Source: Chloroflexi bacterium HGW-Chloroflexi-2
GTDB taxonomy: Bacteria > Chloroflexota > Anaerolineae > Anaerolineales > Anaerolineaceae
Direction: 5' to 3'
Length of the DNA stretch: 61,871 nt
NCBI GenBank assembly: GCA_002840735.1
Contig: PHBY01000016.1
Span: 1 to 61,871 of the forward strand
The position numbers and the translations under genes are program-made. Of this stretch, positions 4,847-41,200 are shown in pieces (positions within the stretch are counted from its first letter, which is position 1; each line of letters starts with the position of its first letter). The notes under the pieces are model-generated. The model searched no databases and was not told the DNA's origin. It saw only the letters and a list, made by a program, of their open reading frames with translations.

Positions 4847-5866
4847 CTAGAAACCATCAGCAAAGGCATCCACGACAGGTTTAATGTCATCCATCATCGG
4901 GTAGAGAATTGGGCAGGTTACACCGGCATCCACATATTCACGTACTTTCTTGCGGCATTCGTCCGAGGTACCCACCGCCATCAATTCGCGTACCACATCA
5001 TCCGGAATCACTTTGGAAGCCTTGATATAGTCTTCTTCGGTGGCTGGCCAGCTCATAATCGCCTGAACTTTCTCCAGTAATTCTTCACTCACACCGGAGG
5101 CTTTCATGATATGAGGTTCGGTTGCCAGGTAATAGGCAACCAGTTTCTTGCCCTCTGCCATTGCTGCTGCAGGGTCCTCATCCGAAAGACAGCAGACCAG
5201 TAATTCAGGTCGATCGATGTCAGTAAGCGTCTTCCCAACCTTCTGGGCACCTTTTTCAACCAAACCTACTGCCTTCTTGATGTAGTCCACGGAAACGACG
5301 TAATTCAGCACGACGCCATCACACAATTCACCGGCCATTTCGAGCATCTTATCGCCAGTGGCACCGATGTAAATCGGAATGTTACGGGGGCTGCGGTCAC
5401 CAAAAGCTACATCCAGTTTGACACGATCCAGTGTAACAAACTCACCCTGGTAAGAGACTTCTTCCATGGTGAATAACTGGCGTATGGCTTCCACATTCTC
5501 GCGCATAGCTTTCATTGGTTTAACGCGGTTGACACCCACACGGCTGGCTATCGGTTCCCACCAGGCACCCAGGCCTAACATCACACGGCTTTCACCATCC
5601 ACCAGACCACCTAATTCCCACATGGTGCTCCAGCTGGCGGCAATCACTGCCGGGTTACGCGTCCAGATCGGTAACACACCGGATCCATAACGCAATCGTT
5701 TGGTAGCTGTTAATAAAGCACTCATCATCACGATACAATCGCGTGCCAGACGGGTATCCGCCTGCCAGATTTCGCTGAATCCGCGTTCTTCAGCATATTT
5801 GGCAATTTCCAATTCATATTGAATATCGTGTTTATCCTGCAAATAAAGCGCTACTCTTTGGGTCAT
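4847..5866 (-). CDS. LLM-class flavin/F420-dependent oxidoreductase
   Basis: 339 residues from the ATG at 5866, chosen because GGAGG lies 7 nt upstream; the open frame continues upstream into the UbiD gene but that part is not protein-like for this family. It is a luciferase-like (alpha/beta)8 barrel resembling methylene-tetrahydromethanopterin reductase-type proteins: EIWQADTRL near the N-terminus, an [16 protein letters not shown] segment and a C-terminal [13 protein letters not shown] helix. Cofactor (FMN or F420) and substrate cannot be told from sequence. It overlaps nothing but starts one base from the UbiD stop, so coupling is strong. It may reduce or oxygen-independently dehydrogenate an intermediate of the catabolic string; this is inference. 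Confidence 0.85.
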
Positions 5867-7241: not shown

Positions 7242-8419
7242 TAATTTCCTCCTGATTGAATTGGATAGGTACCCATTTCCCGGGCAGTTTCCAGCATCGC
7301 CAGATAATATTCGGGTTTGACACCGGGATGAATGGAATTACTGCTCGAGATCAAAAAACCACCACCTGGTGCAGCTGCCTGAATGACAGCTTGAGTCTGT
7401 GCCTTTACAGCTTCAATGGGTCCATCCACCAGGACGGTCGAACAATCGACATTTCCGATAAGTGTTAATTGATCGCCATATTTTTGTTTAATTTCGGTAA
7501 TGTTCATATTCGCGCGTGGTTCAATGGCTTGAAAAGCATCGATACCACTGGCAATCATATCCTCTAATAAACTATTCACATTGCCATCCGTGTGTTTGAT
7601 ATAGGGAACACCGAAGCGATGGCAAAGATCCGTAATTTGCTGCATGCGCGGAAAAACAAATTTGCGGAAATGGCGCGGAGAGAAGATCGGCCCCTTATTG
7701 GCTGCCCAATCATAACCGCCGTGAATGCCGTGTACCCCACGTTCCAATAGCATCTCTGTGAGTTTTAATGTTGTCTTTAAACGGGCATCCAGATAGCGAT
7801 GGATCAGATCTGGCGCTTCCACCAGACCGATCAGGAAGGTCTCTGCCCAATCAAAGGTGGATCCGATTTCGACATCAGCAGATGCCAACACCATCCGGTT
7901 TTTACCCATACGCTCCAGCACCATATCGACGAAGGAAAAATCCCAGGCATCCGGGTCAAATGATTGGCTTTCCAGATGAGCCGTCAATTTTTCCAGTTCG
8001 GGTAGTCCCCCCTGGCGTAAAGACGAGTCCACCATATCATACACATCCGATTCAGCCGAATAATCGTAGATCACCCACTGGCCGGTTATTTCGTCAGTGA
8101 TCTTCCATTGTCGTTCGGAGATCTGATCCGGCACAGCAGGATTCCGGGGAGCTGGATCGCCATGGGGATATACATCCAGATCCAGCTTTTCCCATAATTC
8201 CATCTCGTCTAATTTTCTTTGTAAGAAGTAATCCTGTACACTTCCATTTAAAACAGCCTGGTTGTAAGCCAATCCTCTGGCTTTACCCCCAAATCCACAT
8301 AGATTCGACCTGCCAAGGACATACTCCGCCGTCGGGTTATCGATGGTTAATTCAAAAATCGGGACGTGGTCCGCTTCCTGATGGGCAAAAGCTGTTAACG
8401 CTCGTTCTTTACTGTTCAT
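7241..8419 (-). CDS. URO-D-type methyltransferase (MtaA/MtbA-like), not heme synthesis
   Basis: 392 residues with the uroporphyrinogen decarboxylase fold. The motifs H276-TDGN and GNVDC at 322-326 resemble the zinc/thiol region of cobalamin-dependent methyltransferases rather than HemE. No heme genes are nearby. Family members move methyl groups from methylated corrinoid protein or act on O-/N-methyl substrates. The window has a second methyl-transfer enzyme (20081-20947) but no corrinoid protein. The gene overlaps its upstream neighbour by an ATGA and its downstream neighbour by TAATG, so the three genes are tightly coupled. Function beyond methyltransferase-like is inference. Confidence 0.8.
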   Translation of the reverse strand: MNSKERALTAFAHQEADHVPIFELTIDNPTAEYVLGRSNLCGFGGKARGLAYNQAVLNGSVQDYFLQRKLDEMELWEKLDLDVYPHGDPAPRNPAVPDQISERQWKITDEITGQWVIYDYSAESDVYDMVDSSLRQGGLPELEKLTAHLESQSFDPDAWDFSFVDMVLERMGKNRMVLASADVEIGSTFDWAETFLIGLVEAPDLIHRYLDARLKTTLKLTEMLLERGVHGIHGGYDWAANKGPIFSPRHFRKFVFPRMQQITDLCHRFGVPYIKHTDGNVNSLLEDMIASGIDAFQAIEPRANMNITEIKQKYGDQLTLIGNVDCSTVLVDGPIEAVKAQTQAVIQAAAPGGGFLISSSNSIHPGVKPEYYLAMLETAREMGTYPIQSGGN

Positions 8420-9717
8420 GTATCGATCCCTGCCCGTTTCTTCAATATTTTCAGCGCTGAACTACATTCTTTAATGAGTATTTCTTCATCAATTCGGGTT
8501 AGTTTCCCATTCTGCATCAGGATTTCTCCAGCCACCATTACGGTGTCCACATCCCCGGAATGCGCACACAATGTCAGGGCAGAAGTGAAATCGTGCACCG
8601 GTGCGGATCGCAAGGTATTCAGATTGACCATCATCAAATCTGCGTCCGCTCCGACAGAAATCGTTCTGTCTGACAGGGACATCCGTAATGCCTGATCGTT
8701 GGTTACATTGGCAGCATCCTGATGCGCTGCTCTCGCCAGGCAGATAGCCATCTTGGTGTTTTCCAGACAATCCTGGGTATCATTGCTGGCTGATCCATCG
8801 GTTCCCAATCGCAAGCGGACACCTCGCTGTAGCATCTTTCCTATCGGGGCAATCCCGGAACCCAGCACAGAATTACTGACCGGGCAATGTACCACCAGGG
8901 CGTTGCGATCCTTGAGTAAATCGATTTCTGCATCATCCACCCAAACAGCGTGAACGATCTGAGCATGCTCATCCAGAATTCCCAGTTGATCCAGCCAGGT
9001 AACCGGTCGTAACCCGGTTTCATTCAGTGTCATTTCTACTTCTTCCAGCGTTTCAGACACATGGATATGGGTAAAACTGCCATGCTTCTTTGCCTGGGCA
9101 TGCGTCTTTTGCATCAAATCGCCGGTTGCCCGCCATGGAGTCAAAGGTCCTGAGGCAAAGGTCACCTTGCTTTCAGGATTCTGTAAGCTATACCAGTGTT
9201 CCATTTCGTCCAGAATGGCAGCTCCACTCTCGGGTTTATTTCCACGATCTGACCAGGCTCTGGCGATGGTGCAGCGGATGCCAATCTCCTCCGCCGCTCG
9301 TTTGACGGCCTCTGTATGCTGCGGGGAATGAGTGATTTTGTGATGATCGACAACATAGGTAACGCCACCCCGCAGGTTCTCTGCCAACCCTAACAGGGAT
9401 GCCAGATACATCTCGTCAGCCGAGAAGGCGGATTGCAACGGCCAGATCAATTCTTTCAACCACTGTAATAACGGCCTGCCACCGGCCAATCCACGCATAA
9501 AGGATTGGCTGAAATGCGAGTGACCATTCACCAGACCCGGAAGGACAGCCATCCCACCAGCATCGATGACCTGATCAGCCAGCACCAATGTTTCCTGATC
9601 TGGATTGCCTTCCTGCACTGCCGTAATCTTTCCGTTTTCGATCGAGAGATAGCCAGGTGTTAACCATGCGTCAGACTGGTAAATATTGCCATTATGGATG
9701 AGGATTTTTTTGGACAT
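8416..9717 (-). CDS. SsnA/TrzN-like metal-dependent amidohydrolase (deaminase type)
   Basis: 433 residues of the cytosine deaminase/chlorohydrolase group. Metal and catalytic residues are intact: HSH 66-68, H219 in HIHVSE, H256 in IVHAVW and D307 in LGTDGS. SsnA-type proteins occur with YgeW, YgeY and hydantoinase and are thought to deaminate or open a purine-derived ring. Oddity: after ALRM (about 346) the sequence goes straight to SLSDRTISVGADAD, lacking about 14 residues that usually carry the ATxxGAxALG helix, so the C-terminal part of the barrel may be altered. The gene overlaps the next one by four bases (ATGA). Confidence 0.87.
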   Translation of the reverse strand: MSKKILIHNGNIYQSDAWLTPGYLSIENGKITAVQEGNPDQETLVLADQVIDAGGMAVLPGLVNGHSHFSQSFMRGLAGGRPLLQWLKELIWPLQSAFSADEMYLASLLGLAENLRGGVTYVVDHHKITHSPQHTEAVKRAAEEIGIRCTIARAWSDRGNKPESGAAILDEMEHWYSLQNPESKVTFASGPLTPWRATGDLMQKTHAQAKKHGSFTHIHVSETLEEVEMTLNETGLRPVTWLDQLGILDEHAQIVHAVWVDDAEIDLLKDRNALVVHCPVSNSVLGSGIAPIGKMLQRGVRLRLGTDGSASNDTQDCLENTKMAICLARAAHQDAANVTNDQALRMSLSDRTISVGADADLMMVNLNTLRSAPVHDFTSALTLCAHSGDVDTVMVAGEILMQNGKLTRIDEEILIKECSSALKILKKRAGIDT

Positions 9718-9722
9718 TCTTC

Positions 9723-10454
9723 TTAGACCAGACTCCTGCCGCCATCGATAAAATACACCGAACCGGTGGCGAATTCATTTTCAATCAGAAATTCTGCCAG
9801 TTTGGCAACATCCATGGGGCTTCCTACGCGTTTTAACAACGAATTTTCGATCGCCCATTCCACCTTGGCTGGTGAAGGATCAGGGGGAAGAAGAACCGTG
9901 CCAGGTGCTATGGCATTCACCCGAATCTCCGGTGCCAGTTCAAAAGCCATGGATTTGGTCAAAGCAACCAATCCGGCTTTGCTCGCAGCGTGATGGGCAT
10001 TATCATTCCACACCTGAAAAGCAGATAGATCGGTGATATTGATGATCACACCCTGCCCCTGCTCTTTCATGATGGGAGCGACAGCCTGGGAACATAAGAA
10101 TGGTCCTTTGAGATTCACATCCTGCGCTAAGTCCCACTCTTCTTCAGTGATCTGCAAAAATGGTTTTCTTAACCACACGGAGGCATTGTTGAACAACACA
10201 TCAATGCGGCCAAAGACCTCTTTCGTTTCCTGCACGAATGCTCTGATATCTGGGTTACTGCGAATTTCGACCTTTTTTACAAAACACTTCACACCCAGCG
10301 CTTCAATTTCGGCTTTGGTTTCCTGCCAGGGTTCATTCTCTTCATAATAACTGAAAGCAATGTTGGCCCCCTTACTGGCAAAATAGAGCGCTACTTCTTT
10401 TCCTACACGCGTGGCAGCACCGGTAATGAGTATGACGGAATTTTCAAGTTTCAT
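9723..10454 (-). CDS. Short-chain dehydrogenase/reductase with His replacing catalytic Tyr (I)
   Basis: 243 residues from the ATG at 10454, chosen for the AAGGAG site and because the upstream extension is not SDR-like and overlaps the neighbouring gene. TGAATRVG at 11-18 is the NAD(P) loop (the TRVG form is seen in pteridine reductase-like SDRs), NNASVW at about 89-94 the stabilising segment and S144 the catalytic Ser. The position of the usual YxxxK tyrosine is H155 (HAASK, K159). The C-terminus VYFIDGG is normal. It is paralogous to the next SDR and shares the same substitution. Substrate unknown. Confidence 0.88.
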   Translation of the reverse strand: MKLENSVILITGAATRVGKEVALYFASKGANIAFSYYEENEPWQETKAEIEALGVKCFVKKVEIRSNPDIRAFVQETKEVFGRIDVLFNNASVWLRKPFLQITEEEWDLAQDVNLKGPFLCSQAVAPIMKEQGQGVIINITDLSAFQVWNDNAHHAASKAGLVALTKSMAFELAPEIRVNAIAPGTVLLPPDPSPAKVEWAIENSLLKRVGSPMDVAKLAEFLIENEFATGSVYFIDGGRSLV

Positions 10455-34108: not shown

Positions 34109-34819
34109 TTAAGCTTTTATCGTGCCTCTATTCTCTAAATGCTGATTTACAGATCGATCACTGCTATCAGACGGACAAATGATAAATATACAATGGGTTA
34201 TATGATCAGTTCTATTCTCCCATCGATGTGGGATGTGTGCCTGAAAGATCAAACTATCACCTTGCTCCAAAACAAATTCCTCCTGTCTAACAATATAAAC
34301 CAGACTACCTTGAAGACAATAAATAAATTCCTGACCGGTATGAACATAAGTTTCTACACCACTACTGGTATTAGGTTTAGAAGTCATCAGAAGAGGTGTT
34401 GCTTCCCCCAAAGCCAAACCTCCACCTAAATCCTCAAGTTCACCATGTGGAAATAGAGTTCGCGGTCTTTCTTTATGTTTTTGGAAAACGATTTCTTTAT
34501 AGGTATCGCTCGTTTCAAAAAAAGCTGTAATCGGAACGTTCAGGGCTGAGGCGAGTTGCTGTAAAGTGCTTACATTGGGTGATGTCTTTTCATTTTCAAT
34601 TAAACTGAGCGTATTGAAGTTCAAACCACTCATTTCAGCCAGTGATCGAATAGACAATTTCTGCATTAATCTGAGTTCCTGTAACCGTCTGCCTACATTA
34701 ATTTCTTTTTCATTGGCTGAAACGATGGATGATTGCATTACTGCTTGCAAACTTTCGCGCCAATGACTTTGCCTGAAAGCATTTCGAGGTTTATTTTTTC
34801 CTTGAGTTGATGATGGCAT
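34109..34819 (-). CDS. XRE-family regulator with C-terminal cupin
   Basis: 236 residues. A helix-turn-helix at about 44-100 (RSLAEMSGLNFNTLSLIE) is followed by a cupin sensor domain at about 150-215 (HTGQEFIYCLQG, GDSLIFQAHIPH). Closely related to the regulator part of the protein encoded at 39260-40309 (shared TLQQLASALNVPIT type segment). Its promoter shares a distinctive sequence with that gene's promoter. The N-terminal 40 residues are basic and unstructured. It may control the surrounding metal-cofactor genes and itself. Confidence 0.9.
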   Translation of the reverse strand: MPSSTQGKNKPRNAFRQSHWRESLQAVMQSSIVSANEKEINVGRRLQELRLMQKLSIRSLAEMSGLNFNTLSLIENEKTSPNVSTLQQLASALNVPITAFFETSDTYKEIVFQKHKERPRTLFPHGELEDLGGGLALGEATPLLMTSKPNTSSGVETYVHTGQEFIYCLQGSLVYIVRQEEFVLEQGDSLIFQAHIPHRWENRTDHITHCIFIICPSDSSDRSVNQHLENRGTIKA

Positions 34820-34848
34820 GGAAAAATCCTTTCGTTGTTTATACTATT

Positions 34849-34876
34849 ATTATAGTACATTAAAGGATTATTTCAA
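34849..34876 (-). promoter_or_regulatory. Sigma-70-type promoter of the XRE-cupin gene
   Basis: Read on the minus strand: TTGAAA (34876-34871), 16 nt, TATAAT (34854-34849), 30 nt before the start codon. The spacer end plus -10 box, TAATGTACTATAAT, is repeated exactly in the promoter of the related regulator gene at 40.35 kb, suggesting a common operator. Confidence 0.6.
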
Positions 34877-34948
34877 CCATTATTTTATTACATTCATCAC
34901 CAAAATCATGGTTTTTTGGATCATTCCCTGCAAGCGAAAAATTGAGGA

Positions 34949-35671
34949 TTATTTCACCATCGTGACCAATCGAATACCATTGACTTGGGGTAAGGATGCC
35001 CCTTGAACAATCGTGTTAATAGCAGAAACAGGATCATCCACACGAGCACCGGATAAAAATGAAACACCTGAATCAAATAGTTTGGGCAACATCGGGGTGG
35101 AAGGTCCCAATATCATTACGGTCGCATCTTTTTTACAGAGAGAAAGCAATTTTTCTATGGTATGGTTGATGAAAGCTGTCCCGGTGATGGCCACAATATC
35201 CGATTGGGGAATATAGTCCTCTGCTGCTTCTTCCGGAAAATCATCTCCAAATGGCTTCTTTTCGATTACCCAGCAGTGCCTGGGGATGGATTTAATCTGC
35301 TCAACAAACGGAAAATGCCCAACAATAGTGACGTTTTTTCCTTTACCTTCTTCAGCAATAACCGCAGATGCATTTTTTTGTACCAATTTCTTTTCATCGA
35401 CTGCGATCATCGAATTAATAGCTGCCATACCGACACTGGCTTCCAGAAAATTATCAGAAAGAATCCATTCAGCCAGTTGTTGGGCGGTTTTTTCTTCAAG
35501 CTTGCCAACATCCCGCATTTTTGCATGGCCATGCGGACCACAATTGGTTAGTGTCGATGACAAACCACAATAAGCACTGCAGACCAATGTCCAATGTACA
35601 CCTACAACAACTTTTCTGACCGGTATCGGTTCCTTTGGGAGAGATTTTAAGAGCAATTCGTACAGATTCAT
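34949..35671 (-). CDS. DUF364 putative heavy-metal-chelation Rossmann-like protein
   Basis: 240 residues. The N-terminal half has the DUF4213-like segment (VVVGVHWTLVCS, GPHGH) and the C-terminal half the DUF364 Rossmann-like fold (IVGHFPFVEQI, ITGTAFINHTIEKLL, ILGPSTPMLP). Homologs sit near metal and molybdenum-cofactor genes and are predicted to bind a metal or anion; no reaction is proven. The start has a GAGG site. Transcribed with the flanking minus-strand genes. Confidence 0.85.
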   Translation of the reverse strand: MNLYELLLKSLPKEPIPVRKVVVGVHWTLVCSAYCGLSSTLTNCGPHGHAKMRDVGKLEEKTAQQLAEWILSDNFLEASVGMAAINSMIAVDEKKLVQKNASAVIAEEGKGKNVTIVGHFPFVEQIKSIPRHCWVIEKKPFGDDFPEEAAEDYIPQSDIVAITGTAFINHTIEKLLSLCKKDATVMILGPSTPMLPKLFDSGVSFLSGARVDDPVSAINTIVQGASLPQVNGIRLVTMVK

Positions 35672-35724
35672 TTTTCCTCATTTGTGATGATAGAACAATG
35701 ATGATTAATTTGATACTTCAGATA

Positions 35725-36171
35725 TTAATCATATGCTTTGCGAATTTTTTCAGTAGTCATGGTTGGCTCCAGCAGTGCTTGCCATTTAATATCATTCCAG
35801 GTTCCCAGTTCAAAATGAGTATCCCGATATTTTTGTGGAATGGGATGGGTACCAGAAACAACCTTTATCCTGTACCTGTGTTCGAGAAAATTCTTGAATG
35901 TTTCAATATAGGGACAGGGCGGATATCCAACCAGCATCCCAGTCGCAAAGTGAATAACTTCAGCACCATTTCGCATCATTTCATCGGCTGTATATTCAAT
36001 ATTGCCACCAGGACAGCCATCACAGGTTGTGTATCCAACCAGTTCTACGTCTTTTCCCTCATAAATACTGAAAGCACCCTCCCGGTTTCTCAATGCCCGA
36101 AAACATTTACCCCCAGCACATGTTCGATAGCGATCACAAATAATGATTCCTATTTTTATTTTTGATTCCAT
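35725..36171 (-). CDS. CGGC-domain metal-binding protein
   Basis: 148 residues from the ATG at 36171, which has AGGAG upstream; the frame opens 17 codons earlier without protein-like sequence. The domain carries IIICDRYRTCAGGKC, TTCDGCPGGN (the name motif) and CPYIETFK, Cys-rich segments that likely bind a metal or redox group. Function is unknown in the family; it is common in anaerobes with Fe-S machinery. Confidence 0.85.
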   Translation of the reverse strand: MESKIKIGIIICDRYRTCAGGKCFRALRNREGAFSIYEGKDVELVGYTTCDGCPGGNIEYTADEMMRNGAEVIHFATGMLVGYPPCPYIETFKNFLEHRYRIKVVSGTHPIPQKYRDTHFELGTWNDIKWQALLEPTMTTEKIRKAYD

Positions 36172-36214
36172 CTCACTCTCCTGATTGATCTTCACAAAAC
36201 CATTCTTTGTATAA

Positions 36215-36511
36215 TTACACAATCGTTTTTAATATTTCATTCAATTGATCTGCCTGAACATAATCTTTGACAGTGATCGCTTGTCCGGAAATCCCAGGTA
36301 CTTCTTTGATGGCATCAATGATCGCCAGAGCTAACGGAACCGCAATGGGACATAACGGGGAAGAAGGACGAAACACATAGATTATTTTTCCGGTGTCATC
36401 AAATTGAATGTCCTGAATCAAACGCATTTTAACCACATCCACGCCAGTCTCAGGATCAATAACTTCGGTTAATTTTTCTAACACTGCTCTTTCTAATTCT
36501 TGTTTATACAT
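36215..36511 (-). CDS. MIP18/DUF59-family Fe-S assembly protein
   Basis: 98 residues from the ATG at 36511, preceded by GAGAAG; an ATG at 36523 is an alternative. VIDPETGVDVVKM is the DUF59 signature and PLCPIAVPLA holds its conserved Cys. Bacterial SufT/PaaD-type and eukaryotic MIP18 members help place Fe-S clusters into targets. The start overlaps the end of the MinD-ferredoxin gene, so the two are coupled and probably work together. Confidence 0.88.
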   Translation of the reverse strand: MYKQELERAVLEKLTEVIDPETGVDVVKMRLIQDIQFDDTGKIIYVFRPSSPLCPIAVPLALAIIDAIKEVPGISGQAITVKDYVQADQLNEILKTIV

Positions 36512-37439
36512 TTTGCTTCTCATATTGAAACAGTTTGTTTACAGTCTGATGCCAGATTTTATGAATTGCTCTGGCTGCGGGTGATTCCGGATAAAGAACC
36601 TGAATAGGGACACCCTGCAACATGGATAAAGGGATGCTCTCATCAAATGGGATTTCCCCAACAACTTCAATGCCCTGTGTTTCAGCAAACTCATAAATTT
36701 CTTTTGTGCCTTGTGGATATAGGTCTGCTTTATTAATACAGATAACAGTTGGAATCCTGAAGTGTCTTAATGTGCCCAGCACCCGTTGCAAATCATGCAT
36801 CCCGGCCTGTCCCGGCTCGGCAACAATGAGACCGAGGTCTGTTCCTGCACAGGCTGATATCACCGGGCATCCAATCCCGGGAGGACCGTCGATCACAATC
36901 AGTTGAACGCTCTGATCATCTGCAGCTAAGCGTGCATTTTGTTTGATTAATGTGACCAATTTCCCTGAATTCTCTCTACCAGGAAAAAGTTCTGCATGGA
37001 AAAATTTTCCATATGGCGTTTCGGATCGATACCAGAAACCTTCCTGCTGAGGAATCATGCTGATGGCGTCTTCTGGACAGGCATAAACACAGGCCGCACA
37101 TCCATCACATGCAATCGGGTCAATCCAATTCACACCTGGAATTTCGGAATGGGGGAAAATGGCATCATAGCGACAAACCGATTCACAGGATCCACAACCA
37201 GTACATTTTTGTACATCAATTTCAGCCTGTGAGCTACCCCAGAACTCGTGTTGTTCTGCCACCTGAGCTTCAAGCACCAGACTGAGATTAGCTGCATCGA
37301 CATCAGCATCGACAAAAAAAGTTTTGTAATTCATCCCAGCATGAGTGCTCTCATAGGCGAAGGCTGCACTTAAACTGGTTTTACCTGTGCCTCCTTTTCC
37401 ACTTAATATGACAAGTTGTTTTGCTCTTTGTTGTGTCAT
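36504..37439 (-). CDS. MinD-superfamily ATPase with inserted ferredoxin domain (I)
   Basis: 311 residues, COG1149 type. P-loop SGKGGTGKT at 13-21, then an inserted 2x[4Fe-4S] ferredoxin (CTGCGSCESVC and CDGCAACVYACP), then the rest of the ATPase (VIDGPPGIGCP, INKADLYP). These proteins are close to NifX-like genes in many anaerobes and are believed to insert or move metal clusters with ATP; this is not proven. It overlaps the second such gene by four bases (ATGA). Confidence 0.93.
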   Translation of the reverse strand: MTQQRAKQLVILSGKGGTGKTSLSAAFAYESTHAGMNYKTFFVDADVDAANLSLVLEAQVAEQHEFWGSSQAEIDVQKCTGCGSCESVCRYDAIFPHSEIPGVNWIDPIACDGCAACVYACPEDAISMIPQQEGFWYRSETPYGKFFHAELFPGRENSGKLVTLIKQNARLAADDQSVQLIVIDGPPGIGCPVISACAGTDLGLIVAEPGQAGMHDLQRVLGTLRHFRIPTVICINKADLYPQGTKEIYEFAETQGIEVVGEIPFDESIPLSMLQGVPIQVLYPESPAARAIHKIWHQTVNKLFQYEKQNV

Positions 37440-38311
37440 GACCTGCCATCACTTTTATCAATTATTTGATTTATTTTTTGATACATATCCTTAAACTTTT
37501 CATGGTAATTCGGATCGATCACCACCAGTGGTTTTCCTGCAGCTATTCCCCTGGCAATTTCTTTATCAAATGGAATTCTCATTAAAATGGGTATTCCTTT
37601 TTGCTCTAAATACCGATCCAACTCAGCATTACCAATACCTTCTCTATTGATCACGACCCCGTATCGAATCCGCATGTCCTCCAGAATACCCAACATTTGC
37701 TTGAGATCATGCAAGCCAAATGGGGTGGGTTCAGTCACCAGAATGACAAAGTCTACTCCCCGCACGGTCTCAACGACTGAACAAGACGCGCCTGGTGGAG
37801 AATCGATGACAGTGATTGTCCCATTGGATGATTTTTCAAGTTTTTTCAACTGCCGAATGATGGGGGTCGCCATCGGCTCGCTCAGGGTTAATTTTCCATG
37901 GGTAAAATCGATTCCAGATATGGTAGTGCCTTTTTCAATCACCCCGATAGGATTGGGAATCTCTTCAATAGCTCCTTCCGGGCAATTCCAGGTGCAGCTG
38001 CCACAGCCATGGCAGAGTTGCGGGAACACCATGATGGTTTTTCCGACTTTCGCCAGGGCATGAAACTGACACACTTCAACACATTGTCCACACAGTGTGC
38101 AGCGTTCAGGGTCTATTTTGGGAATTCGAATGACAGCTGGAATTTCCTGTGTAAAGGTCGGGTGCAGAAACAAATGAGCATTCGGTGCTTCCACATCACA
38201 ATCCAACAATTTCACCTGGTTTGTTTCAATCAGACTGAGTGCCAGACTGGTTGCCACCATTGTCTTACCCGTTCCCCCTTTTCCACTTGCTACCGCTATT
38301 TTCATGTTCAT
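37436..38311 (-). CDS. MinD-superfamily ATPase with inserted ferredoxin domain (II)
   Basis: 291 residues, paralog of the next gene. P-loop SGKGGTGKT near the N-terminus, ferredoxin insert CTLCGQCVEVC and CHGCGSCTWNCP, and IDSPPGASCSV further on. Two such ATPases in tandem are typical of COG1149 loci and suggest a heterodimer. It lies 15 nt downstream of the NifX-like gene. The start is ATG with a second ATG two codons on; no good ribosome site. Confidence 0.93.
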   Translation of the reverse strand: MNMKIAVASGKGGTGKTMVATSLALSLIETNQVKLLDCDVEAPNAHLFLHPTFTQEIPAVIRIPKIDPERCTLCGQCVEVCQFHALAKVGKTIMVFPQLCHGCGSCTWNCPEGAIEEIPNPIGVIEKGTTISGIDFTHGKLTLSEPMATPIIRQLKKLEKSSNGTITVIDSPPGASCSVVETVRGVDFVILVTEPTPFGLHDLKQMLGILEDMRIRYGVVINREGIGNAELDRYLEQKGIPILMRIPFDKEIARGIAAGKPLVVIDPNYHEKFKDMYQKINQIIDKSDGRS

Positions 38312-38326
38312 TTTACCGATGCCGAA

Positions 38327-38662
38327 TCAAAAAGCCGGCAATTTACCCTCCAAAAATGTATCAATTACATCATCCACGTTGTTCAGGTTACCATCAAAAA
38401 GATACATTTTCACATCAGCAGCACGCAAAGCATTGGCAGCATTGGGTCCAAAATCACCACTGATGACTACATCAGCTGCCTGATCAATGACGAATTGAGC
38501 AGCTGCTACACCTGCACCACCTGATTGGCGTCCACCCGGATTGGGAAGTGCCTGGTTCTCTTTTGTCTCCGTATCATACTTAATCAGCCAGGGGCTACGC
38601 CCAAAGCGATGTTCAATGGGACTTTCAAGATTCTGTCCCTGTGATGAAATCAGTAATATCAT
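38327..38662 (-). CDS. NifX/NifB-type dinitrogenase iron-molybdenum cofactor-binding protein
   Basis: 111 residues of the COG1433 family (RNase H-like fold). The segment EHRFGRSPWLIKYD and the GGAGVAAAQFVID, ISGDFGPNAANAL region are typical. Family members bind Fe-S or FeMo-cofactor precursors. No nitrogenase genes are present, so it is one of the nif-independent members that accompany MinD-ferredoxin ATPases. GGAGG precedes the ATG. Confidence 0.92.
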   Translation of the reverse strand: MILLISSQGQNLESPIEHRFGRSPWLIKYDTETKENQALPNPGGRQSGGAGVAAAQFVIDQAADVVISGDFGPNAANALRAADVKMYLFDGNLNNVDDVIDTFLEGKLPAF

Positions 38663-38685: not shown

Positions 38686-39135
38686 CTATTTTTCAACCAA
38701 TATCGCCCCAGCGGCTACCGGGTCAAATCCATCCGGCCAGATCGTGTCTCTGTCATATTTTGCATTTCCAAAATAGGCGTCTTCCATGCTGGCTCCTTTT
38801 AAATTCGTTCCACGCAGGTCGGCATCATCAAAATTACAACCTTTTAAGAAAGTACCTTCCATATTGGCATTTTTTAAATTGGCACTGGCGAAACAAGCAC
38901 GTTTCATATTGGCCGCTTTCAGGTTTGCACCTTCCAGGTTGATACCCATAATATTGGAACGTTTAAAACTGGTTGCTTCCAGATTTGCCCCGGCCAGATT
39001 GACATTGGAAAAATCGGTGCCATAAAAGTCACCACCGCTTAATTCTGCTCGCACGCCACCTTCTTCACCTGCCAGGTATTTACGATGCAACTCAAAAATT
39101 TTTATTAATTCTTCATATAAAATCTTTTTATACAT
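38686..39135 (-). CDS. Pentapeptide repeat protein
   Basis: 149 residues. From about 28 to 120 runs an uninterrupted series of A(D/N)LxG-type pentapeptides (NLAGANLEAT, NLEGANLKAAN, NLRGTNLKGAS style), predicting a right-handed beta helix. No signal peptide. GAGGAG precedes the ATG. Such proteins can mimic DNA or serve as scaffolds; no function is assignable. It is 24 nt upstream of the NifX-like gene in the same direction. Confidence 0.9.
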   Translation of the reverse strand: MYKKILYEELIKIFELHRKYLAGEEGGVRAELSGGDFYGTDFSNVNLAGANLEATSFKRSNIMGINLEGANLKAANMKRACFASANLKNANMEGTFLKGCNFDDADLRGTNLKGASMEDAYFGNAKYDRDTIWPDGFDPVAAGAILVEK

Positions 39136-39259: not shown

Positions 39260-40309
39260 TTAATGTAAAAGTTCTGTATGATCGATTAACTTGCCATCTA
39301 TTAATGCCTGCACGGCTAATTCAATATCACGTAAATCCGTGACAACTGGTTTTATATTGAACTGGCGCATGCTTTCATAAGCTCCCATGCCCATACCACC
39401 ACAAATCAATGCTTTGCAATCAGAGATCGTTTCTGCCATACTGGCATGTTTTTGATGCGATCCTGCATCCATGCCATGACCTGCACCGCCATGGTCATTT
39501 TCCTCATGTTGTGCGACAAAATGTGTGTGACCCATTTTCTCACGCATTTCAGTTTGAGTCACCTTTCCTTCTTCAATAGTCACCACAAGATAATAAGGTG
39601 CCCGGCCAAAATGTTGGCTGATAGTCTTTCCGTCATTTGTAATTACTGCGATCTTCATAGATATCTCCTTTTGTAAGGTTTCAAGTGAAAAGTGCCTGCC
39701 ACCAGGCTCTTCCCGTTCATCCGTTGGATAGAGCGTTAACAAAATTTGCGCAACTTCTTCCCCTTTGTTTTCCCAACAATGTGGAAGATGAGCCTCGAAC
39801 ACAATACTGTCCCCTCTTTGTAAATTGAATTCCTCCTGGCCAATTTGATAATGAATACTCCCCTCGAGGCAATAAACAAACTCATGCCCGGTGTGTACGA
39901 TCATGCGATCACCACTTCCCATTCCCGGTTGTAAGGTAACCACAAAAGGCTGAACCACTTTACCTACCAGATCCTTACCCAGATTCTGCATCTGTGTGCT
40001 TCCAAACGCAGCAAAAGGTCTTTGTTCGGCTGGGGTGTATACCACCCTTTTTTCAACCTGTTCCGTTTCAAAAAAAGTAGTGATCGGTACGTCCAATGCC
40101 TGCGCTAATTGTTGCAAGGTGCCCACAGAAGGAGAGGATTTTCCATTCTCAACCAGACTCAAGGTATTGACATTCAAGCCACTGCGTTCTGCCAATGCCC
40201 TCAATGAAAGCCCACGCCGATTGCGTAAATCACGCAGGTTTCGCCCGACCAACATTTCAGCAGGAGTCCGAGTAGTTAAGTCTTCATTCTGATCAAATAA
40301 TAAGTTCAA
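39260..40309 (-). CDS. XRE-cupin regulator fused in frame to a NifX-like domain
   Basis: 349 residues. HTH at about 25-80 (RALAERSGLNVNTLSLVE), cupin at about 130-200 (HTGHEFVYCLEG, GDSIVFEAHLPH), then from residue 218 a NifX/NifB-like domain (KIAVITNDGKTISQHFGRA, CKALICGGMGMGAYESM) with a His-rich loop around 275-300. An excellent AAGGAG ribosome site lies inside the coding sequence ahead of Met218, so a separate NifX-like protein is probably also made. The regulator part resembles the one at 34109-34819. The cofactor-binding domain would let the regulator sense metal-cluster status (inference). Confidence 0.9.
   Translation of the reverse strand: MNLLFDQNEDLTTRTPAEMLVGRNLRDLRNRRGLSLRALAERSGLNVNTLSLVENGKSSPSVGTLQQLAQALDVPITTFFETEQVEKRVVYTPAEQRPFAAFGSTQMQNLGKDLVGKVVQPFVVTLQPGMGSGDRMIVHTGHEFVYCLEGSIHYQIGQEEFNLQRGDSIVFEAHLPHCWENKGEEVAQILLTLYPTDEREEPGGRHFSLETLQKEISMKIAVITNDGKTISQHFGRAPYYLVVTIEEGKVTQTEMREKMGHTHFVAQHEENDHGGAGHGMDAGSHQKHASMAETISDCKALICGGMGMGAYESMRQFNIKPVVTDLRDIELAVQALIDGKLIDHTELLH
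39656..39670 (-). promoter_or_regulatory. Internal ribosome binding site and start inside the regulator-NifX fusion
   Basis: On the minus strand AAGGAG (39670-39665) lies 6 nt ahead of an ATG (39658-39656) that begins the NifX-like domain at its natural N-terminus (MKIAVITNDG). There is no stop codon between the cupin part and this ATG. It would yield a 132-residue stand-alone protein ending at 39260. Confidence 0.75.
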
Positions 40310-40346
40310 TTTGGCGATCCAAGTGGAAATTAAATTTTATACCAAA

Positions 40347-40374
40347 ATTATAGTACATTATTGATAAATTACAA
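40347..40374 (-). promoter_or_regulatory. Sigma-70-type promoter of the regulator-NifX fusion gene
   Basis: On the minus strand TTGTAA (40374-40369), 16 nt, TATAAT (40352-40347), 37 nt before the ATG. It shares TAATGTACTATAAT with the promoter at 34.85 kb. Confidence 0.6.
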
Positions 40375-40444
40375 TGTTTTGTCTTATTATAATGATATAT
40401 GTCACATTTATTGATGATTATTATGTGTATTCCCTTATTGTCTA

Positions 40445-40473
40445 TTGATTATTAGAGAATAGTCTGTTATGAT
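40445..40473 (+). promoter_or_regulatory. Promoter of the PadR gene
   Basis: TTGATT (40445-40450), 17 nt, TATGAT (40468-40473), 23 nt before the PadR ATG and divergent from the regulator-NifX gene. The 187-nt region between the two genes is AT-rich and holds both promoters. Confidence 0.5.
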
Positions 40474-40496
40474 ATTGATGATTGATGGAGGTTTTT

Positions 40497-40892
40497 ATGC
40501 CAAGGAGACGTAGAGGATGGGCGATGAATGGTCATCATGGTGAACATCATAGCCAACATACCCCGCTTACCATTTCTTTATTAGAACCAACCCTATTATT
40601 GCTGATCAGTCAAAAAGAACGGCATGGTTATACGCTGTTGAATGATCTTGAACAGATGAATATGGGCACCATTCATCCCAGCGTGATATATCGGACGCTA
40701 CGTGAGTTGGAAGAATTATGTTGGATTCAATCCACATGGGAAATGGATCAGACACAGGGCCCCCCAAGAAGGATATATTCCCTTACCCCTTTGGGTGAAG
40801 AAGCCTTGATCAACTGGCAACACCAGTTGGAGTTACATCAAAAATCCATCGATCAATTGTTGTTAATGTTCAAATCAAATCACTCTGAGTAA
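40497..40892 (+). CDS. PadR-family transcriptional regulator
   Basis: 131 residues from the ATG at 40497, chosen for GGAGG 5 nt upstream (the frame opens 15 nt earlier). Basic, His-rich N-terminus (GHHGEHHSQH), then the winged helix of PadR (RHGYTLLNDLEQM, SVIYRTLRELEE, YSLTPLGEEAL) and a C-terminal dimerisation helix. The His-rich leader may bind metal. It precedes and probably cotranscribes the DUF5320 gene. Confidence 0.92.
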   Translation: MPRRRRGWAMNGHHGEHHSQHTPLTISLLEPTLLLLISQKERHGYTLLNDLEQMNMGTIHPSVIYRTLRELEELCWIQSTWEMDQTQGPPRRIYSLTPLGEEALINWQHQLELHQKSIDQLLLMFKSNHSE

Positions 40893-40933: not shown

Positions 40934-41200
40934 ATGCCTGGTTTTGATGGTTCTGGTCCTTATGGAGATGGCCCTCGTGGTAGAGGGTTTGGTCCCTGCC
41001 GTAATAGTCAGACTGACCTGCGGTATGGTCGCGGTTTTGGTCGCCGTGGCTGGTCTGGCCGTGGTTGGTTTGGATGGGGAAGAAATGCACCTTACTACGC
41101 ACCTCAGGATGAAATCGTTGACTTAGAACGCGAGAAATCTTTTTTGGAAAAACGGCTGGAAGATATCCGTCAGTTGTTGAATAAAAAAGAAGAATATTAA
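40934..41200 (+). CDS. DUF5320-type small Gly/Arg-rich protein with coiled coil
   Basis: 88 residues. The first half is Gly/Arg/Trp-rich (GDGPRGRGFGPC, GRRGWSGRGW), the second half a charged coiled coil (DLEREKSFLEKRLEDI). Such proteins are regularly found with NifX-like and PadR genes in anaerobes; function unknown. AAGGAG precedes the ATG and the gap to padR is 41 nt. Confidence 0.85.
   Translation: MPGFDGSGPYGDGPRGRGFGPCRNSQTDLRYGRGFGRRGWSGRGWFGWGRNAPYYAPQDEIVDLEREKSFLEKRLEDIRQLLNKKEEY

Follow-up and report, generated by a model that had tools for sequence, protein, structure and literature searches.

In a 61,871-nucleotide stretch of DNA from Chloroflexi bacterium HGW-Chloroflexi-2 (contig PHBY01000016.1; hereafter referred to as the window), a single gene very probably makes two proteins, to judge from comparison with its relatives: a regulator, consisting of an XRE helix-turn-helix and a cupin domain, fused to a NifX-like domain, and the NifX-like protein in free form, translated from an internal start codon. 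A nested gene of this kind, from which little of the fused regulator and much of the free NifX-like protein would be made, provides the best overall explanation of our findings, and one that we consider probable. Internal initiation is strongly supported by the conservation of the Shine-Dalgarno sequence and ATG beyond what the protein itself appears to need, which strengthens the suggestion, made in a preliminary description of this DNA, that both the fused and the free protein are likely to be made.

The minus-strand frame running from 40309 to 39260 consists of 349 codons, with no internal stops. HTH_3, Cupin_2 and Nitro_FeMo-Co matches were all above their respective Pfam cut-offs, the last of these spanning residues 226-337 with a score of 62.6 bits (cut-off 26.3), and the preliminary description of a regulator running without a stop into a NifX-like domain therefore holds. 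HTH_3 precedes Cupin_2, the order that defines XRE-cupin proteins, and this half of the protein matches 1y9q, the nearest solved structure, and HppE-type structures. The whole fused protein scored only 23.4 bits with the NifX equivalog profile TIGR02663, for which membership requires more than 112 bits; on the basis of this score, the C-terminal domain is classed as NifX-like, distinct from NifX proper. Histidine and cysteine residues invariant across 17 aligned NifX-like domains are suggestive of metal-sulfur cluster binding. One relative (G007) has an ATG at the codon equivalent to the TTG start of the window gene.

Met218 is preceded by CAA AAG GAG ATA TCT, such that AAGGAG and ATG, separated by six bases, occupy 39670-39656. 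According to an AlphaFold2 model based on 33 sequences (mean pLDDT 78.2, pTM 0.44, with unreliable domain placement), this residue opens the first strand of the NifX-like domain, in agreement with the earlier claim that the two signals lie at the natural start of this domain. The linker around the internal Shine-Dalgarno sequence is predicted to be disordered. It also contains, 5' of this sequence, a terminator-like hairpin with a T-rich sequence on its 3' side (39694-39707, minus strand), which could affect access to the site.

Table 1. Positions of the fused gene, its component parts and the neighboring genes in the window.
Feature	Position	Strand	Details
Fused gene, XRE helix-turn-helix + cupin + NifX-like	39260..40309	-	349 aa, TTG start
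XRE helix-turn-helix (HTH_3)	40076..40237	-	residues 25-78, PF01381, E 1.2e-15
Cupin domain (Cupin_2)	39737..39943	-	residues 123-191, PF07883, E 2.9e-17
Linker	39659..39706	-	residues 202-217; pLDDT < 50 for 202-215
Internal Shine-Dalgarno sequence AAGGAG	39665..39670	-	read as Lys-Glu within the fusion
Internal start codon ATG	39656..39658	-	Met218, where the first NifX strand begins
NifX-like domain (Nitro_FeMo-Co)	39263..39658	-	PF02579, E 4.4e-17; proposed free 132-aa product
His-rich insert of the NifX-like domain	39461..39529	-	residues 261-283, pLDDT < 50, invariant His
Pentapeptide-repeat protein, next gene downstream of the fused gene	38686..39135	-	
Second, shorter free NifX-like protein	38327..38662	-	PF02579, E 4e-15
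MinD/ParA-type ATPase	37436..38311	-	ferredoxin-like 4Fe-4S motifs
Second MinD/ParA-type ATPase	36504..37439	-	4Fe-4S motifs
FeS_assembly_P protein	36215..36523	-	PF01883
CGGC-domain protein	35725..36222	-	PF08821
Putative heavy-metal chelation protein, DUF4213 + DUF364	34949..35671	-	PF13938 + PF04016
Second XRE-cupin regulator, without NifX	34109..34819	-	same gene run; contrast within the window
Divergent PadR-type regulator	40482..40892	+	
DUF5320 protein behind PadR	40934..41200	+	

The search covered four overlapping genome sets (41 relatives, then 147 genomes at the family level, 400 at the order level and 396 at the class level), yielding at least 36 distinct fused genes after the removal of identical genes. 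The order and class searches covered the best five candidates, at most, per genome and matches to E 1e-50, so distant or second copies may be missing from this count, and NifX matches stopping short of the domain start were left unclassified. The 36 genes include one with its 5' end cut by a contig end (L102), and exclude L152 and L106, the latter being a further fused gene (in G129) with its 3' side cut by a contig end. Thirty-four belong to the window's own family and two to another family of the same order (L054 in G261 and L053 in G306); these two nest inside the main clade of the tree, which suggests that they were acquired by horizontal transfer. In a second genome collection, 78 of 80 loci could be classified (L218 and L223 being partial), and 34 of these carried a fused gene; 33 of the fused genes had an identical NifX part and one (L152) was new. 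The NifX alignment was also used to scan viral contigs, and there was no relative among the 24 pattern matches obtained.

The window's genome and most of those of its relatives are draft assemblies, in which the loss of a stop codon through a sequencing or assembly error might create an open junction. The same open junction is nevertheless present in 36 distinct genes from separate assemblies, six of which are from named isolates: Leptolinea sp. HRD-7, which has a complete genome, Ornatilinea apprima P3M-1, Levilinea saccharolytica KIBI-1, Leptolinea tardivitalis YMTK-2, Anaerolinea thermolimosa IMO-1 and Longilinea arvoryzae KOME-1. The probability of such an error is therefore negligible, and we reject this explanation. 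The fused genes reach down to 52-58% identity to that of the window. Comparison supports a fusion that is both real and old.

On the two strands of the window's genome (4,106,884 bases), there are 128 copies of AAGGAG-N6-ATG, versus 38 of the reversed pattern. By simple arithmetic, the chance frequency is about 4.6e-6 per position per strand, corresponding to about 0.0016 in-frame occurrences per 350-codon gene. Conservation across relatives is more telling than this single-gene estimate. The internal ATG is present in 36/36 fused genes and, when Shine-Dalgarno strength was calculated as the duplex energy of the preceding 20 nt with the anti-Shine-Dalgarno tail, all 36 sites were at -5 kcal/mol or below (mean -8.3). 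The window gene and its 35 fused relatives thus have a same-frame start codon with a ribosome-binding site, as expected of in-frame nested genes. The difference from other ATGs is large: 32/36 internal sites were at -7 kcal/mol or below, versus 35/321 of the remaining in-frame ATGs located beyond codon 30 in these frames. AAGGAG itself lies within 20 nt of the ATG in 29 fused genes, in the window's register in 28, and is replaced in the other seven by AAGGAT (L035), AAGGAA (L043), CAGGAT (L044), CAGGAGG (L045), CAGGAG (L047), CAGGAGGAAG (L048) or TTGGAG (L103). The weakest sites are those of L035 (-5.4 kcal/mol) and L043 (-5.6 kcal/mol). Several genes have changed the encoded amino acid while mostly retaining the signal (L055, CAA AAA GGA GCA; L045 and L047, CAG GAG; L103, TTG GAG; L048, CAG GAG GAA).

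The lysine codon of the Shine-Dalgarno sequence is AAG in 30/30 cases, versus 37% of 463 lysine codons elsewhere in the fused genes, and the glutamate codon is GAG in 31/33, versus 29% of 910. Synonymous changes were scored by parsimony on the tree, for 95 two-fold degenerate columns of the codon alignment. The two Shine-Dalgarno columns, with one and two changes, ranked second and third for rarity of synonymous change per sequence, and the minority synonym is present in 30/31 and 31/33 of their sequences. In the column ranked first, the codon is the majority one (GAA, 30/30); outside the Shine-Dalgarno columns, the share of AAG or GAG in a lysine or glutamate column peaked at 14/26. Resampling tests on single genes were individually weak (p 0.003-0.60); the strength of the synonymous signal lies in its repetition across genes, and the 36 genes are relatives rather than independent trials. 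Since the linker is predicted to be disordered and the first NifX strand to begin at residue 218, the start signal seems to be conserved beyond any apparent need of the protein, and the Lys-Glu pair looks like a translated Shine-Dalgarno sequence rather than a structural motif. The comparison of relatives supports selection on the internal start as a start.

The fusion probably arose from neighboring genes by stop loss, because unfused neighbors with a Shine-Dalgarno sequence before NifX exist (L008, L051, L101, L095 and L015), and the Shine-Dalgarno sequence and ATG might be mere leftovers of that event, with an unimportant free protein. Such a relic would not be expected to keep its ATG in 36/36 genes and its minority synonyms nearly frozen down to 52-58% identity while other linker codons vary, and we judge this reading very unlikely. 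The position of AAGGAG, exactly at the domain border and within a linker predicted to be disordered, would also suit a ribosome pause site assisting regulator folding before NifX synthesis, without initiation. A pause requires neither an ATG at start spacing, which all 36 genes have, nor an open start region, and the internal start regions are predicted to have less pairing than sites chosen at random within the genes (0.585 vs 0.438; 36 vs 183 sites, p 3.5e-7, with base composition unmatched). Moreover, separate genes also start from a site of this kind, with an energy of -5 kcal/mol or below for 21/21 standalone or truncated genes and 17/17 paired genes from hand-picked lists. Pausing alone is thus a highly improbable explanation.

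The phylogeny shows how fused and separate forms are related. A 53-row tree, from which L100 (in G327, at a contig end and containing stops) and standalone genes were left out, placed 35 fused and seven split genes on one side of a branch (98/92), and 10 split pairs together with a diverged fusion (L104) on the other. The split genes nest within the fused clade, and a stop before the ATG in all homologs, which the preliminary description had set as grounds for its refutation, did not occur. Three of the seven split members have a stop overlapping the Shine-Dalgarno sequence: L008 (CCA TAG GAG AAT ATG ATG), L051 (GAA TAA GGA GTA ACC ATG) and L095 (GAA TAA GGAGCAAC ATG, in another frame, with TAAGGAG). 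Either part may be lost. L105 retains an XRE-cupin gene (frame 422-1120) with 74-75% identity but no NifX; its linker still reads KKEIT, with the codons AAG GAA, and the ATG is absent, the pattern predicted had selection on the site ceased with the loss of NifX, although this is a single case. Conversely, Bellilinea caldifistulae (L207 in G010) has lost the XRE part and retained AAGGAG-ATG-NifX. Among the 34 genomes of the family with the fusion, and with at most 14 best candidates considered per genome, another NifX-only match (E <= 1e-35) was found in only two (G162 and G097), and the internal start is therefore likely to be the only source of free protein of this subfamily in most of these genomes. 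G097 has the fusion at one locus and a free NifX gene heading an ORP-like operon at another, an arrangement suggesting a place for the free form in the chemistry of the operon.

These patterns raise the question of whether the fused product itself matters, or whether the free NifX-like protein and the XRE-cupin protein are the important products, with a read-through fusion that is tolerated and drifts in and out. The fused label requires five changes on the tree, with at least three of these changes forced by well-supported branches, and both the split state of 7/42 clade members and the retention of XRE-cupin without NifX in L105 are consistent with drift. When nine linker codons were nevertheless simulated as evolving neutrally on the tree, with a base composition derived from stop-free linkers, an in-frame stop was predicted in 17.5 of 42 tips, whereas four such tips were observed (P 0.0085), or seven if all split tips are counted (P 0.0485). 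The in-frame joining of NifX-like domains to proteins of another family, DUF134, also argues against a tolerated by-product, which we consider unlikely. Maintenance of the fused product is moderately supported by this sequence comparison, but the split state in seven of 42 genes indicates that the fusion is not indispensable.

One DUF134 fusion was encountered in a spirochaete (L219/L224, Spirochaetales DFE_TRE1), in a phylum different from that of the window, with a His-rich NifX-like domain in frame behind DUF134 and, in L219, a Shine-Dalgarno sequence before the NifX ATG at 5001. DUF134 is a Pfam family of unknown function; weak matches to helix-turn-helix and sigma-region-4 profiles make DNA binding likely. 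Seven in-frame DUF134::NifX genes were found in seven genomes, four from the phylum of L219 and three from Chloroflexota. In each, PF02001 and PF02579 were both above Pfam cut-offs, and the Shine-Dalgarno sequence before the NifX start (ATG in six, TTG in one) was at -5.6 kcal/mol or below. Split DUF134 and NifX neighbors also exist. These genes share with that of the window a helix-turn-helix-like domain followed by an in-frame NifX domain with its own Shine-Dalgarno sequence and start, but the N-terminal domain is unrelated, and the seven scattered cases are too few for a test of selection.

The genes around the fused gene (Table 1) resemble ORP/Mrp-type clusters in content. Neither the fusion (33.0 bits) nor the two ATPases (61.1 and 52.3 bits) reached the 450 bits of the MrpORP profile NF041136. 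The compact minus-strand run from 34109 to 38662 forms an ORP-like cluster with two regulators. The gap at 40310-40481 would be the expected promoter region of the fused gene. Inverted repeats upstream differed among the three genomes compared and established no operator, and promoter-like sites numbered nine, versus 6.2 expected, an uninformative difference. The neighbors of the fused gene differ among relatives. In L090 (7957-8406, minus strand) and L114 (4487-4918, minus strand), an OsmC-like gene (Pfam) runs up to within a few bases of the fused gene or into its start, and the two genes may therefore be translationally coupled. In L112, the fused gene lies beside XdhC/CoxI and FmdE genes (Pfam; 7443-8525, plus strand, and 9392-9991, minus strand), two families linked to molybdenum enzymes.

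We propose that the weak upstream site, a TTG with a poor Shine-Dalgarno sequence, would direct synthesis of the XRE-cupin-NifX protein in full, as a local regulator of transcription with a domain for binding a metal or a metal-sulfur cluster, and that the strong internal AAGGAG-ATG would yield a free protein of 132 residues consisting only of the NifX-like domain, probably in excess. The free protein may serve as the functional carrier in the cluster chemistry of the operon, the attached copy may enable the regulator to read the same ligand, and free copies might compete with the sensor or buffer it; we infer the ligand, the DNA target, the competition and the product ratio. The internal Shine-Dalgarno sequence of the window gene (-8.7) is stronger than the best upstream candidate (-3.2), and the same is true for 30/35 genes with an upstream candidate. 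Since the upstream sequence is the stronger in the other five (L007, L035, L040, L047 and L056), and upstream starts are uncertain, an excess of free protein is an expectation that does not extend to every gene.

Sensing through the NifX tail is suggested by two known systems. Six of seven Pseudomonas XRE-cupin factors studied regulate the adjacent gene (PMC7901475). MrpORP, in which a PF02579 domain has become fused to an ATPase several times independently, is described as binding Fe-S clusters through both domains (PMC6345978). The window gene shares the helix-turn-helix and cupin architecture of XRE-cupin (PuuR-like) factors, which are named for these two domains, but adds a third, NifX-like domain with its own ribosome site (PMC7901475). 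It has the PF02579 domain in common with MrpORP, NifX, NifB and ORP-type proteins, but its partner is a DNA-binding regulator rather than an ATPase and the domain carries a His-rich insert; the portion of the MrpORP report available mentions no internal start (PMC6345978). The orp operons of Desulfovibrio vulgaris resemble the window in that a local regulator accompanies the ORP cluster; there, it is the sigma54 activator DVU2106, a separate protein rather than a fusion (PMC3897727).

In-frame nested genes are a known kind. AerR of Rhodobacter capsulatus is likewise a single gene with an in-frame internal start and two forms, long and short, with opposite regulatory effects; its short form starts at Leu41 and two promoters are involved, whereas the window gene would release a whole C-terminal domain (PMC6199135). 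Cas8/Cas11 (PMC11899642) and lysA of mycobacteriophage Ms6 (PMC3111421) also have a shorter same-frame protein started within a longer gene, but the products are a complex subunit or an enzyme, rather than a regulator and its ligand-binding partner. Among the open-licence titles listed with the terms used, we found none describing a regulator-NifX fusion with a conserved internal start.

A broader reading, which we advance tentatively and only as a whole, is that of a recurrent design in which the operon's cluster-binding protein forms the tail of its own regulator and keeps an internal ribosome site, so that one frame would provide a sensor and a free carrier in a ratio set by translation, the free form would deprive the sensor of ligand by titration, the N-terminal partner would have been recruited from two unrelated families (XRE-cupin and DUF134), and small changes in the overlap of stop and Shine-Dalgarno sequence (TAG GAG vs AAG GAG) would shift lineages between the split and fused states.

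A gene caller keeping one start per frame would report a single protein here, whereas the evolutionary record indicates two. The family would offer a means of reading dual products from the freezing of synonymous codons alone, and a clean case of a fusion and a free domain coexisting through an internal start, with lineages moving between split and fused states by small changes. For the ORP-like metal-cluster operon of these anaerobic Chloroflexota, the arrangement also suggests the class of ligand to which the regulator may respond.
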